The position numbers and the translations under genes were made by a program. A stretch of 64,000 nucleotides of DNA from an uncultured Alphaproteobacteria bacterium (GTDB lineage Bacteria > Pseudomonadota > Alphaproteobacteria > HIMB59). This document shows, piece by piece, positions 2,648 to 13,206 of the stretch. The stretch covers positions 310,001-374,000 of the forward strand of contig CABYRQ010000001.1 of NCBI GenBank assembly GCA_902521485.1, in the 5' to 3' direction. Positions within the stretch are counted from its first letter, which is position 1; the number at the start of each line of letters is the position of its first letter. Under the pieces are notes generated by a model, which was given only the letters and a program-made list of their open reading frames with translations, was not told the DNA's origin and made no database searches.

Positions 2648-3349
2648 ATGAATAAAATGCTTCTGCCTTACGACATTGTAGGGGGGTCTTTTTGGTTAAT
2701 TTCTGTTGGCATGATTGGTGCCACCTTATTTTTCTTTTTTGAGCGTAGCAAAGTAAGCACAAGATTTCATACACCTATGACAATGATAGCTGTTGTATGC
2801 TTGATGTCCTCTATACATTATTTTTTCGTAAAAAATCTGTGGGTAGTCAGCGGCACCGCCCCTACTCTATTAAGGTATATAGATTGGTTTCTTAACTTTC
2901 CAATGCTTGTACTTATTTTTTATGCAATGCTTATGTCAGTTGTCAAAGTTAAACAAGGCATGTTCTGGAGATTATTGGTTGGAACATTAGTTTTTGTTGT
3001 AGCAGGTTTCTTAGGCGCAGCGGGTTATATGAGCAAGACATTAGGTTTCATTGTTTGGTTAGCTGGATGGTTGTACATCCTCGGTGAGCTATATGTTGGA
3101 GAGGCTGGAAGAGCAAATGCTAGATGCGGAAACGAAAATATACAAATGGTTTTCTTCTCGAACAGACTTATTATTACAATTGGATGGGCTATATATCCAA
3201 TGGGATATTTCATAGAGCATTTGGGTGGGGGTATTGATCCCAACAGTGTTAATGTGATTTATAATTTAGCAGACTTTTTAAATAAAATAGTTTTTGGTTT
3301 AATAATTTATAAAGCAGCAATACAAGACATGAGAGTTAATGGACAGTAA
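2648..3349 (+). CDS. Proteorhodopsin-family microbial rhodopsin with non-canonical D-N-I motif
   Basis: RYIDWFLNFPMLVLIFY (helix C), IHYFF (helix B His), GWAIYPMGYF, YNLADFLNKIVFGLII (Schiff-base Lys213); 7 TM pattern. Confidence 0.93.
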   Translation: MNKMLLPYDIVGGSFWLISVGMIGATLFFFFERSKVSTRFHTPMTMIAVVCLMSSIHYFFVKNLWVVSGTAPTLLRYIDWFLNFPMLVLIFYAMLMSVVKVKQGMFWRLLVGTLVFVVAGFLGAAGYMSKTLGFIVWLAGWLYILGELYVGEAGRANARCGNENIQMVFFSNRLIITIGWAIYPMGYFIEHLGGGIDPNSVNVIYNLADFLNKIVFGLIIYKAAIQDMRVNGQ

Positions 3350-3376: not shown

Positions 3377-5365
3377 ATGAACATTACTAGTGGTGCAGAT
3401 ATTATTGCGATAATAATCTTAATAGCGTTAGCAATAGCAATTATAGTTTACTTGCTACATTGGTTATATAGGCGTTCCTCAAAGGAAATAGCGTTTGTTA
3501 GAACCGGTATGGGAGGTGAACAAGTTGTGATCAGTGGAGGTGCCTTCGTTTTACCTATTATTCACAATATTACCTCAGTAGGTATGAAAACTCTCTGTAT
3601 AGAGGTACAACGAAACGGAAGTAAATCCTTTATAACAAAAAATAGAATGAGGGCTGAAGTAACGGCTGAATTCTATGTGAGAGTAGCTCCTACAACTGAA
3701 GCTGTCTCAATAGCCGCGCAAACATTGGGAAATAGAACACTAGAGCCTGATCATTTAAAAGAACTTGTTCAAGGTCGTTTTGTTGATGGATTAGGTGTTG
3801 TTGCTGCAAAAATGAGTCTTGATGAAATTCAAGAGAATAGATCTGAGTATATTAAAAATGTTGCAGCTCACGTTGAAGAAGCAATCAAGCACACTGGTTT
3901 GGAGTTAGAAACTGTTTCCTTGACATCTCTTAACCAAGCACCTGTGGGTGTATTTGATCCATCTAATACATTTGATGCTGAGGGTTTAACTCAAATAACA
4001 GAATTTACTCAGTCACGTAAAAAGAAAAGAAATGATATTGAGAAAGATACAGAGGTTAGTATTCGAAATAAAAATCTCCAATCTATTAAACAAACTCTAG
4101 AAATTGAAAAAGAAGAGGAATTTTCAAAGTATCAACAAAAACGTGAAATCGAACAACAAAGAGCTATTGAAAATACTGAGACTGTAAAAACAAAAGCTGA
4201 GAAAGACAAAGAGTCTGAGTTGGCTGAAATCTCCTCAGAAAAAGATATTGAGATTGCTAAGATTAGCAAGAAAGACTTTGTTGAGATGGAAAAAAGTTTA
4301 CAAGAAACTAAGCTTATTCAAGAAATTGAAAAAAGAAGAAAAGAACAAAATGAGTTTAGACAACAAACTTCTATCGAGATTAAACAAAAAGACATTGAGA
4401 CAGAAAAAACTATTCTTGAATTGGAAAGAGATGTTGAATTTAGTCGTTTAGAAAAACAAAGATCAGTTGACATTAAACTTGCTGAGGAGAAAGCTCAAAC
4501 AGCAAAAGAAGAAGCTAGAAAAAGATATGAGTCTGAAGAGGCTTATATTATGGCTGAGGAGCAAATTAAAAATGCAAAAACTGCTCAACAGAAAAATGTT
4601 GATGCATTCAAAATTGCTGCGGAGCAAGAGACAAGAGTCTTAGATATCGAAAAGGCAAAAAGAATAGAAATCGAAGAAAAGCAAAAACAAATTGAAGTCT
4701 TAGAAAAATCTAAGTCAGTCTTAAAAACTAAAATGGAAGAAGAAAATGCTCGAGCTAAAGCAGTAGAAGCTGAGGAAAAAGTCAACACCATTCGAGATGT
4801 CGAACAAGCTGAAAAGACAAAAGCTCTAGGAGTAATAGACGCCAGTAAAAATGCTGAGAGAGAAAAATTAGCATCTATGGCTGCGAAAATTAGATATGAA
4901 ATTGAAGCAGCAGGCAAAAAAGCCCTAAATGAAGCGGAAAATGCTAGAAGTGATGCAAGTAGAAGAAGTGCTCTTAGACAAAAACTCGCTGAAAAAATTG
5001 AAGGTATTATTAGAGAATGGGTTAGACCTATGCAAAACATTGATTCAATTAAAGTTGTTGATGTAAATGGATTACCTGGATTTAGTCAGGGAGGAGGAGC
5101 TGAAGGAAGTGGTAACGCTGATAACCCGTCTGCATCTTCAGGTGGATATTCAAAAAAAGGATCTTTAGCAGATAATGTTGTGAATTCTGCTCTTCGATAC
5201 AGAGCACAACAGCCTTTCCTAGATAGTCTTTTAAAAGAAATTGGTATGTCCCCTGGTGAGGCAAGTAACATCAGGAATATTCTCGGTGACTATGATGATC
5301 CTAAGAAGGACAAGCATATGAGATTTGATGAACAAGCTACAAAAACACCCAGGAAAAAGAAATAG
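3377..5365 (+). CDS. Flotillin/YqiK-like SPFH-domain protein
   Basis: N-terminal TM, SPFH region (KEIAFVRTGMGGEQVVISGGAFVLPIIHNI), long E/K/A-rich coiled coil; strong SD (aggaggtgat) upstream. Confidence 0.88.
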   Translation: MNITSGADIIAIIILIALAIAIIVYLLHWLYRRSSKEIAFVRTGMGGEQVVISGGAFVLPIIHNITSVGMKTLCIEVQRNGSKSFITKNRMRAEVTAEFYVRVAPTTEAVSIAAQTLGNRTLEPDHLKELVQGRFVDGLGVVAAKMSLDEIQENRSEYIKNVAAHVEEAIKHTGLELETVSLTSLNQAPVGVFDPSNTFDAEGLTQITEFTQSRKKKRNDIEKDTEVSIRNKNLQSIKQTLEIEKEEEFSKYQQKREIEQQRAIENTETVKTKAEKDKESELAEISSEKDIEIAKISKKDFVEMEKSLQETKLIQEIEKRRKEQNEFRQQTSIEIKQKDIETEKTILELERDVEFSRLEKQRSVDIKLAEEKAQTAKEEARKRYESEEAYIMAEEQIKNAKTAQQKNVDAFKIAAEQETRVLDIEKAKRIEIEEKQKQIEVLEKSKSVLKTKMEEENARAKAVEAEEKVNTIRDVEQAEKTKALGVIDASKNAEREKLASMAAKIRYEIEAAGKKALNEAENARSDASRRSALRQKLAEKIEGIIREWVRPMQNIDSIKVVDVNGLPGFSQGGGAEGSGNADNPSASSGGYSKKGSLADNVVNSALRYRAQQPFLDSLLKEIGMSPGEASNIRNILGDYDDPKKDKHMRFDEQATKTPRKKK

Positions 5366-5374
5366 GTATAACTC

Positions 5375-5764
5375 ATGAGTTTAGATGTAAAATCCTGGGC
5401 AAAAAAATATAAAGAGCTTACTGAAAAAGATGAAACCATAAAAGCGATGGCTAAATATTACACTTGTTCATTTCTTTTCGACATGGGTAGTGTGAAGGTG
5501 ATTATCGAGATGCACGATGGAAAAGTTAAAAATATTAATACTAACCCTGGAGGTTTAGATCCATATGACTTTGCATTAAGGGCATCAGAGCAAACATGGA
5601 GAGAGTTTGCAAAGCCTGTTCCAAAACCTATGTTTCATGGTATCTATGCAGCCTCATTTAGAGAAGACCTCAAAATTGAGGGTAATCATTTAGTCTTAAT
5701 GCAAAATCTAAGAAACTTTACTGTTCAATTTGAATTGCTAAGACAATCAGGAGTTCCAGTATGA
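5375..5764 (+). CDS. Small protein, possibly SCP2 sterol-carrier-like fold
   Basis: Pattern VKVIIEMHDGKVKNINTNPGGLDPYDFALRASEQTWREF resembles SCP2-like domains; tightly follows the flotillin gene. Confidence 0.45.
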   Translation: MSLDVKSWAKKYKELTEKDETIKAMAKYYTCSFLFDMGSVKVIIEMHDGKVKNINTNPGGLDPYDFALRASEQTWREFAKPVPKPMFHGIYAASFREDLKIEGNHLVLMQNLRNFTVQFELLRQSGVPV

Positions 5765-5789: not shown

Positions 5790-6653
5790 ATGGCAGTAAA
5801 ACATCATGACCCAATAGGTAGATACGTTACCATCGAGGTAGATGGTCAACAGTATAAAGTCTTTTATCTTTCAAATGGAAAAGGCACTCCATTAGTATGT
5901 CAGCATACTGCTGGATGCCACAATCATCAGTGGAGAGGATTACTGGAAGATGAAGAAATTACTCAAAATTATCAAGTTATCGCTTACGACCTTCCAAGAC
6001 ATGGTAAATCGGATCCACCTCATAATACAGAATGGTGGAAAGAGGAATATAAATTAACAGCAGAGCATTACTGTAATTTTATTGTGGAACTTTGTAAGGC
6101 CCTAGACCTTGAAAACCCTATATTTATGGGATCTTCTTTTGGAGGAAACGTGGCTCTTCAATTAGCTCTGAAGTATCCTAACAAATTTAAAGCTGTGATC
6201 CCTGTCGAGGCTGCGCATTACTCCCCTGGTTTTTATATTGATTGGTGGAGGCATCCTCATGCCAATGCAGCTCAAGTGTGTGGTAGTGGAGTTTGGGATT
6301 TAATGGCCCCACAATCTCCAGACATGGATAGATGGTTAACTTGGCATTATTACACTCAAGGATCAGAGGCTTTTAAAGGAGACCTTCATTTTTATTCAGT
6401 TGATCATGATTTAAGAGATGAGCTGCAAAATATCGATGGTCACAAGTGCCCTGTTATCATGCTGACTGGTACTTATGACTACCTAACCCCTCCCGAAGCA
6501 ACAGAAGATACTGCCAGACAAATAAAAGGAGGAGTTTATATTGAAATGAGAGATATTGGTCATTTCCCGATGAGTGAAAACCATGAAGTCTTTAGAGTAT
6601 ATTTATTAGAGGCACTCAGAATTATTAAGGAAAAGACTGATTACAACTCTTAA
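5790..6653 (+). CDS. Alpha/beta hydrolase
   Basis: Nucleophile elbow GSSFGGN; YDLPRHGKSDPP; C-terminal GH motif. Confidence 0.85.
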   Translation: MAVKHHDPIGRYVTIEVDGQQYKVFYLSNGKGTPLVCQHTAGCHNHQWRGLLEDEEITQNYQVIAYDLPRHGKSDPPHNTEWWKEEYKLTAEHYCNFIVELCKALDLENPIFMGSSFGGNVALQLALKYPNKFKAVIPVEAAHYSPGFYIDWWRHPHANAAQVCGSGVWDLMAPQSPDMDRWLTWHYYTQGSEAFKGDLHFYSVDHDLRDELQNIDGHKCPVIMLTGTYDYLTPPEATEDTARQIKGGVYIEMRDIGHFPMSENHEVFRVYLLEALRIIKEKTDYNS

Positions 6654-6667
6654 TTCAAGTTTGAGTT

Positions 6668-8722
6668 ATGGTCTCTAATCTATATTGGTTTTTTTTCTTT
6701 CTTGTCCTTTATATAAGCTTTTGTCTTTTTTGGGGAGCTAGAACTCTTAGAAAAAATAAAACCCCTGAGGCTTACTATTTAGCAGACAGAAGTGTATCTC
6801 CCTGGGTATTCTTTTTCTCTGCAACAGTAACTACATTTGCAGGCATAACTATCATTTCTTTTCCATCATTAATTTATGCAGATGGGTACTCTTTTCTAGC
6901 TACTGCTGCAATTGTAATAACAATTCCTCTTGGAAGTATATTATTTTTTAAAAGGCAGTGGATGCTAAGTAGAAAATTTAATTTTATCACTCCAGGAGAG
7001 ATGTATTACAAATATTATCAAAGTAATACTCTTAGAATTGTAGTCCTAATAATCGGATTATTTTTTGCTGTTCCGTTTCTTGGTATAATTATTGGATCAA
7101 CAGGTAATGTTGTAGAGTTTATCAGCGGAGGTGAAATAACTAGAGACTCTGCAATGTGGGCACTAACTGCTGTTGTCTTGTTTTATATAGTATCTGGTGG
7201 ATTTAAACCTATGGTGAGTGTAAGCGTTGTTCAATCATGGTTATTTTTTGTTTTTTTCTTAGCACTTGGAGTTGGTGTATTTAATTATTTAGGGGGTTTA
7301 AGTTTTTTTGAAGACCTATCTATGGCGAATAGCTTTATATCTTTCGGAGCTTGGGGAACTACCGGAGGTTACGGAGGCGGCGATATTTCAGGATATTTCA
7401 ACGTTCCTGGTGTAATTCAGTGGGTTGCAGGTATTGGAAAAAATAACCCTTTAGGAGGCCCTTGGACAGCAGTTATGATTTTATCCTTTACTCTCTCTTA
7501 TATGGGTATTGTGCTTTCTCCTACATTTTCGATGTGGAGCTATTCAGTAAAATCACCAAGGTCGTTTTACTTTTATCAAGTTTGGGGGTCAGGTGCTGTA
7601 GTTGGAATATTTTTATTTATATTCGCCCCTTTATTAGGTGTTGGAGCACATCTTCTTGGAGCTAATAGTATTGTTAATTCAAATGGTTTTGCCATTAACC
7701 AAATATTCCCTGAGATAAGTCTACAAAATATATCATCTTTAATTTATGTGTTTGTTGAAAGTTTCAGTAATCTCTCACCAATCATTGTTGGATTTTTAGC
7801 AATATCCATAATTGCTGCTCTTCAATCTACATTATCTGCTTTTTTAATGACCTCAGGCAGCATGGTGGCAAGAGATCTCTATAGACCATATATCGATAGT
7901 AACCCTACATGGAAAAGGGAGTTATTAGTTGCTAGGTTAGCGATGTTGTTATTAAGCTTAGCGGCACTGTATCTTGCAACTTTTTTTGAAACTTCTCTAA
8001 TATTACTTGGTGGATTAGCAATCGCTTTTGGTTTCCAATTATTTCCTGTTTTACTTGGAATGCTTTGGTTTAAATGGATCACTAGGGGTGGGGCAATTCT
8101 AGGACTCATCACCGGATTAGGTTTTGTAACTTTAGCTGAAACTTTTGGTCATAAGCTAACAGGAAATTCTCTTCCTTGGGGGCGATGGCCACTGACAATC
8201 TACTCTGGTTTATGGGGTTTATTCTTTAATGTGATTGTATGTTTTTTATCCTCTATATTTGCAAGTAACGATACAGATAAAGAACATCGAGCATCATTTC
8301 ACAATTTTTTAAATGAACATATGGGTATTCACCCATCAAGAAAAAAAATAAAATCTCTTGCCTATGTCTTTTTTTTAATTTGGGCATTCTTTTCTATCGG
8401 CCCAGGTTTAATTTTTGGAAACTTAATATTTGGTAGCGCTGATCAAAGTTATGATAATTGGGTGATGGGAGTCCCCTCACTATGGGCTTACCAAATAATT
8501 TGGTGGGTAGCGGGTATATTTCTAATTTGGTTTTTAGCAAATAAGATGGACTTATCGACTTTGCCAAAAAAACCCATACTAAATGGTGATGAATATTTGG
8601 CACCTGACGATGTTGAGGAGCAAGGAAACTATATTGATAGAATGGGAGGCGGATATGGTTGGCCACTTATATTAATAGGAATGGCTGTGGCAACTGTAAT
8701 ACTTTCCGTTTATGCATTATAA
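6668..8722 (+). CDS. Sodium:solute symporter (SSS family)
   Basis: 684 aa, multi-TM, N-terminal YYLADRSVSPWVFFFSATVTTFAG typical of SSS family. Confidence 0.85.
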   Translation: MVSNLYWFFFFLVLYISFCLFWGARTLRKNKTPEAYYLADRSVSPWVFFFSATVTTFAGITIISFPSLIYADGYSFLATAAIVITIPLGSILFFKRQWMLSRKFNFITPGEMYYKYYQSNTLRIVVLIIGLFFAVPFLGIIIGSTGNVVEFISGGEITRDSAMWALTAVVLFYIVSGGFKPMVSVSVVQSWLFFVFFLALGVGVFNYLGGLSFFEDLSMANSFISFGAWGTTGGYGGGDISGYFNVPGVIQWVAGIGKNNPLGGPWTAVMILSFTLSYMGIVLSPTFSMWSYSVKSPRSFYFYQVWGSGAVVGIFLFIFAPLLGVGAHLLGANSIVNSNGFAINQIFPEISLQNISSLIYVFVESFSNLSPIIVGFLAISIIAALQSTLSAFLMTSGSMVARDLYRPYIDSNPTWKRELLVARLAMLLLSLAALYLATFFETSLILLGGLAIAFGFQLFPVLLGMLWFKWITRGGAILGLITGLGFVTLAETFGHKLTGNSLPWGRWPLTIYSGLWGLFFNVIVCFLSSIFASNDTDKEHRASFHNFLNEHMGIHPSRKKIKSLAYVFFLIWAFFSIGPGLIFGNLIFGSADQSYDNWVMGVPSLWAYQIIWWVAGIFLIWFLANKMDLSTLPKKPILNGDEYLAPDDVEEQGNYIDRMGGGYGWPLILIGMAVATVILSVYAL

Positions 8723-8827: not shown

Positions 8828-9256
8828 ATGTCTGATTATAGCTACAAGCATCCCTCAAATGTTCAGTTAAATAAAGGACATAAACACACTGATGATTTTA
8901 TTACCAAAAAATACATTTTAAAAATGTTGAGAGATCCTCAAAAATTAAAATCTTTAATTGAAGAACACAGAGCAACTCCAGTTGGAAGGGCTGCTACTCG
9001 AGACCATGGCGTCATTCAGCATAGCCAAGATCTCCAAACATTATTAGATAAGTTAAGAAGAGGAAGTAAAGAAAATGGTTTTGTAACTGTTTGTTTAAGA
9101 AGGCATGAAGATTATAGAGTTGGAATAACAACAGGAGTTAGAGGTGAGCCAGTTGAAATAACTGAAGACTCTTATTCATCTGAAGAGGCATGTGAACATG
9201 CAATATTTTTAAAAAGAATTAACAGACTTCTTGAGGAGTATAGTGGGGAAGAGTAA
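8828..9256 (+). CDS. N,N-dimethylformamidase small (alpha) subunit-like protein
   Basis: C-terminal EDYRVGITTGVRGEPVEI..SSEEACEHAIFLKRINRLLEE resembles remembered DMFase alpha subunit; overlaps the start of the large subunit gene. Confidence 0.75.
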   Translation: MSDYSYKHPSNVQLNKGHKHTDDFITKKYILKMLRDPQKLKSLIEEHRATPVGRAATRDHGVIQHSQDLQTLLDKLRRGSKENGFVTVCLRRHEDYRVGITTGVRGEPVEITEDSYSSEEACEHAIFLKRINRLLEEYSGEE

Positions 9257-11589
9257 TGTTAAAAATAACAGGTTATAGTGATAAGTACTCAGCTCATCCA
9301 GGTGAAGAAGTTAAATTTTATATTAATGCTGAATACAATGATAGTTATGAAGTTCAATTAGTCCGTCTTATACACGGTGATACAAATCCTGAAGGCCCTG
9401 GGTATAAAGAAGCTGAAATAGATGCCAGTTGTAATGGAACTTATCAAGGGAAAAACCAGAGAATACATGGTGGATCGTACATCATCATGCCTCAGCATGA
9501 TAATTTAAATTTAGAGAGCTTTACTATGCAAGCTTATATTTTTCCTACAACGCCAGATAAAGGTAGACAAGGAATTTTCACTAAATTTAATGAAGAAGAA
9601 AAAAAAGGCTATGGTCTCTTTATTAATGATGAGGGATGTTTATCTGTAGAAATAGGAGATGGATCTCAGGTTGTTACTGTCTCCTCAGAAAAAAAACTTT
9701 TAAGAAAAGTCTGGTATCTGGTAATTGCAACATTTGATGCACAATCAAGAAGGCTTACCCTTCATCAAGAACCTAGGGTTACATCCACAAATGGTGGTTT
9801 AGGTATGGCTATTTTGAATCCAATTGAAGAAACCTCAGCTATTATTGAGACCACTAGTTCAGTTTTACCTGCCGCTAATGATGCTCCATTGTTAATTGCA
9901 GCTACTACATTAAATAATAGATCTGGTAGGCACATTTCCGGAGGTCATTTTAAAGAAGTACCTCATCCCATTGAATTACCTGAGCAAACCAAGACTTTTA
10001 ATGGCAAGATAGATAGACCTAGATTATCTAATATTGCTTTATCTAAGGCTGAGATCGAAACACTTGCATCAAGCTATGATGAGTGTAATACCACTGTCAG
10101 GTCAACAGTCGTAGGCGCTTGGGACTTTCATGCGAATATTGGCAAAAACATTGCTTCAACAAAGATTGTTGATACTTCTCCAAATAATCACCACGGATTT
10201 ATTATTAATATGCCAAACAGAGGTATGACAGGACATAACTGGACTGCGGATGAAATGGTTTTCCATCACAAACCTGAAGAGTATGGAGCTATCCATTTCC
10301 ATGATGATGATATTGATGATGCAAGATGGGATGTTGATTTTACATTAAAAATCCCAGAGGGTCTGAAAAGTGGTGTGTATGCTGCTCGACTTAGAGTTGA
10401 TGGAAGAGAAGAGTCAGAAAATGAAGATTATATTCCTTTTTGTGTAAAACCTCCAAAAGGGACAGCCACAGCTAAAATTTTATTTCTCTTACCCACAAAC
10501 AGTTATATGGCTTACTCCAATGATAATCTTGGAACTAATTCTGTCGTAGCTCAATTACTCGCAGGTAAAGTTCCTGTGCTAGAACCTGCAGATTTATATT
10601 TAAATGAACACAGAGAATATGGTTTATCAACTTACTCACTTCACTCTGATGGACATGGTGTATCTATTTCATCAAGACTTAGACCAATCCTTAATATGAG
10701 ACCTAAATACAGACATTGGCTTTCTCCATCATTATGGCAACTAAATGCCGACTTACATTTAACAGACTGGCTTGAGGAAAAGGGCTTTGAGTTTGATGTT
10801 CTTACAGATGAAGATTTGGAACATGAAGGTATAAATTTATTAAATCGTTATAAAGTTGTGATGACTGGAAGTCATCCTGAGTATTCATCTGAGAAATATA
10901 TGGACGCCTTAGAGTCCTATCAAATGCAAGGTGGTAGATGTTTTTATTTAGGTTCGGATGGATTTTACTGGATTAGTGAATATCATCCAGACAACTCCAA
11001 TATTACTGAAGTACGAAAAGGTGAGGCTGGCACAAGAGCATGGACATCTAACCCAGGTGAATACAATAATGCTTTTGATGGTAAATATGGGGGTATGTGG
11101 AGAGCTCGAGGAAGAATACCCTCTAAAGTTTGTGGTTTAACTTTTACATCATATGGATTTGACGTTTCTTCATACTACAAAAGAGAAGAAGATAGTTTTA
11201 AACCTGAATGTTCATGGATCTTTGAAGGGATTGGAGCAGATGAGGTTATTGGTGACTTTGGTTTAGTCGGTGGAGGAGCTGCCGGTTTAGAGTTAGACAG
11301 GTACGACTTAGAATTTGGTACTCCGCATAATGCCTATTATTTGGCTCGTTCACAAGATCACTCTAATATGATGTTGCAAGTTAACGAGGAGATACACTTT
11401 GCAGTTCGCGGCTATTATGGCGGTGGTCATGAAAATCCAATGGTAAGAGCTGATATGATTTACTATAAAACACCTAACAACGGAGCAATGTTTGCACCAG
11501 GGTCTTTGGCTTGGTGCGGTAGTCTTTCTCATAATAATTATAATAATAATGTCTCAGAATTATGGAAAACACTCTTAAAGGTTTTTTAA
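9256..11589 (+). CDS. N,N-dimethylformamidase large (beta) subunit-like protein with inserted LamG/ConA-like domain
   Basis: 777 aa; LamG-like segment (SFTMQAYIFPTTPDKGRQGIFTKF); C-terminal domain with SYMAYSN, YSLHSDG and SHPEYS (H-x-E) consistent with DMFase iron site. Confidence 0.85.
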   Translation: MLKITGYSDKYSAHPGEEVKFYINAEYNDSYEVQLVRLIHGDTNPEGPGYKEAEIDASCNGTYQGKNQRIHGGSYIIMPQHDNLNLESFTMQAYIFPTTPDKGRQGIFTKFNEEEKKGYGLFINDEGCLSVEIGDGSQVVTVSSEKKLLRKVWYLVIATFDAQSRRLTLHQEPRVTSTNGGLGMAILNPIEETSAIIETTSSVLPAANDAPLLIAATTLNNRSGRHISGGHFKEVPHPIELPEQTKTFNGKIDRPRLSNIALSKAEIETLASSYDECNTTVRSTVVGAWDFHANIGKNIASTKIVDTSPNNHHGFIINMPNRGMTGHNWTADEMVFHHKPEEYGAIHFHDDDIDDARWDVDFTLKIPEGLKSGVYAARLRVDGREESENEDYIPFCVKPPKGTATAKILFLLPTNSYMAYSNDNLGTNSVVAQLLAGKVPVLEPADLYLNEHREYGLSTYSLHSDGHGVSISSRLRPILNMRPKYRHWLSPSLWQLNADLHLTDWLEEKGFEFDVLTDEDLEHEGINLLNRYKVVMTGSHPEYSSEKYMDALESYQMQGGRCFYLGSDGFYWISEYHPDNSNITEVRKGEAGTRAWTSNPGEYNNAFDGKYGGMWRARGRIPSKVCGLTFTSYGFDVSSYYKREEDSFKPECSWIFEGIGADEVIGDFGLVGGGAAGLELDRYDLEFGTPHNAYYLARSQDHSNMMLQVNEEIHFAVRGYYGGGHENPMVRADMIYYKTPNNGAMFAPGSLAWCGSLSHNNYNNNVSELWKTLLKVF

Positions 11590-12252: not shown

Positions 12253-13206
12253 ATGGAAAAAAAATTAGGCGTTATTTACAAAAAATCTGATTTAGATCAA
12301 TTTGATAAAATTATTACAAATAAACAGACAGATCAAAAAGTTAAAGAATATTCCATAAAAGAAGCAATTGAAGAGTCAAAAAAAGAATATAGTCACTTGA
12401 CGAACTCGCAAGTTTCTACTGATATGAGACTCTATATGTTCCAGACCGGAACTCTAAAAACAAAAATGAAATATATAAAAATGAATCAATCTAATGAGGA
12501 CTTTGAGATACCTGTTCCATGGTTTTTGATAAGACACCCAAAAGGGGATGTGGTAATTGATGGAGGTAATGCAAAAGAGGTTAGTGAAGATAAACATGCT
12601 CATTGGGGTTCTGTTGTTGCGGCTTATGATCCAATTATGGGAAAAACTGAAAATTGTATTGATCAACTTAACTCTATTGGGGTTAATCCAGCAGGTATAA
12701 GATATGTCTTACATTCTCATCTTCACCTCGATCACTCAGGTGGTGTTGGAAGGTTTCCTAATGCAACACACCTAGTTCAACAAAAGGAATATGATTATGC
12801 TTTTAATCCTGATTGGTTCTCAAAGCCTGCTTATATTAGAAAAGACTTTGATAAACCTGGAATTAATTGGAAATTTTTAAGAGATAAAAATGATGACTTT
12901 TATGACTTATATGGCGACGGATCAATAATTGTAATTTTTACTCCGGGGCATGCACCGGGCCATCAGTCTTTTTTAGTTAATTTACCAAATTCTGGTTATG
13001 TATTGCTTACTATAGATGCAGCTTACACAATGGATCATTGGAACAATTTAACACTACCAGGTCTTGTTTGCTCTGCCGTTGACGTTGTTGACTCTGTAAA
13101 AAAATTAAAAAAAATTGCAAAAGACAGAAATGCTACAGTAGTCACTGGGCACGACCCGCATGCTTGGGAAGAATTTAAAAAAGCCCCAATGTTTTATTAC
13201 GACTAA
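12253..13206 (+). CDS. Metallo-beta-lactamase-fold hydrolase, N-acyl-homoserine-lactonase-like subfamily
   Basis: HSHLHLDHSGG, later GHAPGHQS and GHDPHAW metal-site motifs. Confidence 0.85.
   Translation: MEKKLGVIYKKSDLDQFDKIITNKQTDQKVKEYSIKEAIEESKKEYSHLTNSQVSTDMRLYMFQTGTLKTKMKYIKMNQSNEDFEIPVPWFLIRHPKGDVVIDGGNAKEVSEDKHAHWGSVVAAYDPIMGKTENCIDQLNSIGVNPAGIRYVLHSHLHLDHSGGVGRFPNATHLVQQKEYDYAFNPDWFSKPAYIRKDFDKPGINWKFLRDKNDDFYDLYGDGSIIVIFTPGHAPGHQSFLVNLPNSGYVLLTIDAAYTMDHWNNLTLPGLVCSAVDVVDSVKKLKKIAKDRNATVVTGHDPHAWEEFKKAPMFYYD

Follow-up and report, generated by a model that had tools for sequence, protein, structure and literature searches.

The window, as we call the whole 64,000-nucleotide stretch analysed here, carries at 2648–3349 (plus strand, ATG start) the gene for a 233-aa flotillin-associated rhodopsin (FArhodopsin, FAR) with a DNI motif. 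By profile match, alignment and tree this is a FArhodopsin of the HIMB59 type, and a paralog of proteorhodopsin. It is a real proteorhodopsin relative without the residues needed for proton pumping, and we see an even chance that its role is independent of light, as a membrane component, probably without retinal, that functions together with flotillin, an ABC importer and a hydrolase. The family and its motif are already known; what is added here is modest and concerns host range, a conserved core cluster and variation in the retinal pocket.

A DNI flotillin-associated rhodopsin of the HIMB59 type

The 233-aa open reading frame matches Bac_rhodopsin (Pfam PF01036) with E = 1.7e-31 and 109.9 bits, against a gathering cut-off of 24.6. 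Its alignment to green proteorhodopsin (GPR), offset by 18 throughout, places D97, T101, L105 and E108 at Asp79, Asn83, Leu87 and Ile90, and H75, R94, D227 and K231 at His57, Arg76, Asp209 and Lys213. The first-pass annotation had read the same DNI motif, the same Leu87 and the same numbering, and had listed Lys213, Asp209, Arg76, His57 and Asp79 as retained; all of this is confirmed by the alignment, and its observation of a DNI rhodopsin is correct. The Schiff-base Lys213 in helix G and the counterions Asp79 and Asp209 are present, the sandwich tryptophans W80 and W180 are also kept, and at the donor position 108 the alignment to GPR puts no Glu or Asp in the window protein, so that Ile90 stands.

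The same annotation did not name DNI as an established motif class. DNI is, however, the described motif of HIMB59 FArhodopsins, as DTT is in Pelagibacterales and DTL in Pseudothioglobus, and in all three the gene always lies beside flotillin (Haro-Moreno et al., 2023; PMC10308929). This counts against novelty as far as the existence of a DNI clade goes, but the clade was not described with a known function. The window gene shows the features used to define FArhodopsins: an adjoining, same-strand flotillin downstream, a clade of its own, the DNI motif and a coexisting proteorhodopsin. A maximum-likelihood tree of 39 rows groups the FARs in one clade (support 100/99), apart from all 17 proteorhodopsins, including the genome's own. 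The best matches to the window protein in the PDB, 9r23 (E = 2e-91) and 9r21 (E = 1e-90), are both named flotillin-associated rhodopsin. These closest solved structures share its short N-terminus, and 9r21 differs from it in having Thr101, Met108, His102 and Glu138.

The published HIMB59 protein and the window protein are alike in the DNI motif, Leu or Gln at 105, the kept lysine, a short N-terminus, the adjoining flotillin and a companion DTE proteorhodopsin (PMC10308929). Sister HIMB59 species have Q105/E138/G155 where the window's species group has L105/G138/W155, and no difference of kind was found between them. The SAR11 DTT-T rhodopsins (Olson et al., 2018; PMC5864233) belong to the same FAR clade, with the f99/f2 members that carry DTT ∼66–68% identical to the window protein, but differ in their DTT motif and in W134, Q138, F197 and H201. 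Green and blue proteorhodopsins (8cqc, 2l6x, 4kly and Med12 4jq6) share the fold family, the lysine and the counterions; they are, however, DTE proteins with V102, M134, G138, G155 and E142 (the deposited 4kly sequence has Asn at 97), whereas the window protein is without the donor and E142 and has a pocket that appears filled.

The genome also encodes a separate DTE-Q proteorhodopsin (G000:C1:56373–57017), which adjoins genes read as crtI, crtB and crtY. A blh gene is indicated by a PF15461 match, and the crtB and crtY readings are backed by matches to PF00494 and PF05834.

The gene is intact, conserved and under purifying selection

Among 37 related loci, taken from single-cell genomes and MAGs other than the window's own genome, the reading frame was intact in 36. 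All 36 intact relatives have D79, N83 and K213; at the donor site 35 have Ile and one (L033, DNV) has Val, and in each a flotillin-type frame starts 27–30 nt downstream of FAR. With DNI in 35 of the 37 loci and DNV in one, the motif is no sequencing quirk. In the one broken copy, a MAG locus (L034, FAR gene 7990–8720), two bases close to the start are missing from an otherwise conserved gene; its frame break is probably an assembly error. Near-identical loci came from AG- series single-cell genomes of uncultured Alphaproteobacteria, a series that includes SAGs used in PMC10308929.

Within the genus, dN was 0.02–0.09 with dS saturated (Nei–Gojobori), and the window gene is therefore under strong purifying selection and not decaying. 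It is nevertheless an accessory gene, because 14 of 52 genomes of the same genus lack FAR, among them one that is 99% complete (G030), while 38 carry it. One MAG, G404, holds both a HIMB59-type FAR (L134, on contig C23) and a Pelagibacterales-type FAR (L135); the latter lies on an 8 kb contig (C125) and was treated as likely contamination.

No close FAR was found on viral contigs, and plasmid records yielded only proteins at 26–38% identity. With the genome's own proteorhodopsin as query, one viral proteorhodopsin was matched, a DTE-type protein on an IMG/VR contig (L159:2974–3687), adjoining an ORF that by eye looks like thymidylate synthase. Promoter matches around the FAR gene were at chance level only.

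Aromatic substitutions in the retinal pocket

We compared the window protein with 17 proteorhodopsins, in GPR numbering, at the 77 positions that are invariant or nearly so in them. The window protein departs at 24 of the 77. Four of these departures, T101N, V102F, M134F and G155W, fall at pocket positions, going by established BR and GPR structures; V102, M134 and G155 are invariant in the 17 proteorhodopsins, and the window protein has F84, F116 and W137 in their place. Since these aromatic side chains fill the pocket as read from the alignment, the window protein most likely lacks the usual hold on retinal, and most of the space for the pigment has probably gone.

Other FAR lineages fill or change the pocket by other residues. 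Sister HIMB59 species have T101N, V102F, M134F and G138E, and Q105 where the window protein has L105. The set in Pelagibacterales-like FARs is V102F, M134W, G138Q, W197F and P201H, and 9r21 has V102H and G138E. E142 is replaced by Ala in every FAR compared. On the branch leading to the window's species group, Q105L, E138G and G155W change together, which on the alignment reads as a coupled swap, with a bulky group lost on helix D and another gained on helix E; this swap is an addition absent from PMC10308929. The deposited sequences of 9r21 and 9r23 differ only at 102 and 138 within the aligned stretch, which suggests pocket engineering by depositors testing whether the pocket could be opened. 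Modelled by AlphaFold2 together with nine near relatives, the window protein came out as a multi-helix protein, but at a mean pLDDT of 50.6 the model is too weak for judging pocket clash or geometry.

These substitutions divide the first-pass claim that retinal binding and the counterion complex look intact: the lysine and the counterion complex are indeed kept, but with bulky V102F, M134F and G155W the retinal part of the claim is not supported. Sister DTT FARs expressed in E. coli bound no retinal and gave no light-driven pH change (Olson et al., 2018; PMC5864233). In the same study, changing two residues of a working proteorhodopsin to DTT-T abolished its function, and one DTQ protein did pump. 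The DTQ protein and the kept counterion Asp79 could be taken to favour a proton pump, weak or residual, with an alternative donor. With the donor and Thr101 both replaced, Ala at 142 in every FAR compared, and the DTT-T result, we regard such a pump as highly improbable.

Without the donor carboxylate, reprotonation is slower, as it is in sensory rhodopsins. The window protein could bind retinal, or another carotenoid-derived chromophore, and sense light in a slow cycle, signalling via flotillin or another partner. The lysine, both counterion aspartates, Arg76, His57, W80 and W180 are all kept, the genome has a retinal pathway, and it is in the upper photic zone that HIMB59 FARs recruit best (PMC10308929). 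Against a sensor stand the bulky F84, F116 and W137, the failure of the tested DTT sisters to bind retinal (PMC5864233), the absence of any recognized transducer or kinase among the neighbouring genes examined, and a related lineage, genus g66, without a recognized retinal pathway (see below). On balance we consider a light sensor unlikely.

The FAR gene lies in a cluster with an ABC importer, flotillin and a hydrolase

The neighbours between 1 and 11589 all lie on the plus strand. Upstream of FAR are the C-terminal portion of a permease-like protein of 757 aa (1–1128; its N-terminus lies before the window), assigned from its position in the ABC operon, and an ABC importer permease of the ribose/sugar type (1132–2523; BPD_transp_2 profile match). 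The 662-aa flotillin (3377–5365; Band_7 and Flot, PF01145 and PF15975) begins 27 nt beyond the stop codon of the rhodopsin gene. It is followed by a 129-aa protein with no Pfam or NCBIfam match (5375–5764), which is 75–80% identical in the other FAR lineages compared and may correspond to the sterol-carrier-annotated gene of the published cluster (PMC10308929), and by a 287-aa alpha/beta hydrolase (5790–6653; profile match), the most conserved protein of the cluster at 81–88% identity across other lineages. A sodium:solute symporter (SSF profile match; 6668–8722) comes next, then a small ORF together with an N,N-dimethylformamidase beta-subunit-like protein (DMFA2_C; 8828–11589), a known part of FAR cluster content (PMC10308929).

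The window and its upstream flank also hold a PxpA-like LamB/YcsF protein, biotin carboxylase, carboxyltransferase domains and the sugar-type ABC importer. The published FAR cluster contains an inner-membrane translocator, a sodium symporter, dimethylformamidase, a PxpA-like gene and biotin-dependent carboxylases (PMC10308929), and the two clusters are alike in ABC permease, symporter, dimethylformamidase, PxpA-like protein and biotin-dependent carboxylase.

Two further genes were observed. Inside the FAR neighbourhood, the protein encoded at 12253–13206 matches the AttM-family N-acyl homoserine lactonases (426.6 bits against a curated NCBIfam cut-off of 390), and a distant homolog (31–33%) follows the hydrolase in g66. 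Downstream of the cluster, 13210–14517 matches xylose isomerase (TIGR02630, 649 bits), possibly hinting at a pentose-like substrate for the ABC system.

A deep-branching FAR lineage without a second rhodopsin

A class-wide sample together with a family search revealed FARs at 53–55% identity in six of seven members of genus g66, alphaproteobacteria with genomes of 4–4.5 Mb. These proteins branch first within the FAR clade and keep the lysine. In all six carriers, whose genomes are 95–97% complete, FAR is the sole Bac_rhodopsin. None of the six matched PF15461 (blh) and none had a full-length lycopene cyclase, PF05834 giving only fragments of ∼35–45 residues, whereas it covers 278–377 profile positions in three genomes with proteorhodopsin. 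Chance loss is unlikely with six genomes at this completeness. PF00494 matches were not used here, since alone they cannot tell phytoene from squalene synthase.

RPE65-family oxygenases, considered as a retinal source in g66, were set aside because they also occur in the FAR-less member (G065). The absence of blh is not decisive either, because Aurantimicrobium minutum makes retinal without the known genes (PMC7734400), and g66 may likewise use another route to retinal. The g66 FARs retain both V102 and M134, with small residues at other sites, and their pocket, going by the alignment, may be open.

The gene order in g66 is SBP, ABC ATPase, permease, permease, FAR, flotillin, the 129-aa protein and hydrolase (read without SBP in G1061, where the fragment used does not reach it). 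No dimethylformamidase or symporter was found in the cluster stretches read. The g66 hydrolase is 81–82% identical and the 129-aa protein 79–80%, against 53–55% for FAR. Five of the loci in which the sole rhodopsin sits in this ABC-importer/flotillin/hydrolase cluster are L137, L138, L141, L142 and L143. The ABC link is not universal, because two Pelagibacterales-like stretches (L139 and L140) show no permease pair beside FAR.

This lineage departs from the published picture, in which FAR carriers belong to streamlined taxa and all have a DTE pump (PMC10308929). The g66 FARs and their conserved core gene order are absent from that paper and extend it, although the lineage may have been reported elsewhere.

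The presence of both genes in the window's own genome, as in all published carriers (PMC10308929), agrees with the suggestion, made for FARs by their discoverers, that they form mixed oligomers with the genome's DTE proteorhodopsin and regulate its pumping. The same has been proposed for lysine-less Rh-noK. All six g66 carriers, however, are without a second Bac_rhodopsin gene, and pairing with a pump is therefore not the general role if these near-complete genomes are representative. As a general role it is less likely, and we hold it to be improbable for the window protein.

A possible light-independent role beside flotillin

The first-pass annotation offered a slow-cycling sensor, a very weak pump or another function, and it is the last of these that we favour. 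A proteorhodopsin paralog that lost its cytoplasmic donor and had Thr101 replaced would have lost proton pumping, and the aromatic residues in its pocket would have cost it the usual hold on retinal, presumably leaving a protein that carries none. What persisted would be a seven-helix membrane protein, encoded with flotillin and kept by strong selection, that may serve as a structural or ligand-responsive part of a flotillin microdomain. Such a microdomain would organize the adjoining binding-protein-dependent ABC importer and hydrolase, and the role of FAR would then lie in substrate uptake and not in light capture.

What speaks most strongly against a protein wholly without retinal is that the lysine and counterions are retained: it is odd that Lys213, Asp79, Arg76, His57, Asp209 and Trp180 should all be kept if no retinal is bound. 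The recruitment of HIMB59 FARs in the upper photic zone (PMC10308929), the retinal pathway of the genome and the possibly open pocket of the g66 FARs also speak against it.

For the family as a whole we put forward a more tentative proposal, which we think possible but somewhat doubtful: that FARs are retinal-independent seven-helix subunits of a flotillin-organized ABC-importer/hydrolase system, with a role that g66 suggests to be independent of a pump, and that streamlined marine lineages later filled the pocket in various ways, the Q105L/E138G/G155W swap among them.

If true, a conserved rhodopsin without pumping, and perhaps without retinal as well, would be a clear example of an opsin put to a new use in the membranes of abundant ocean bacteria, one that does not depend on light. 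The question can be tested in g66: should that lineage truly be without retinal synthesis and a partner pump, any model that relies on such a pump would fail family-wide, and one that requires light would probably do so as well.
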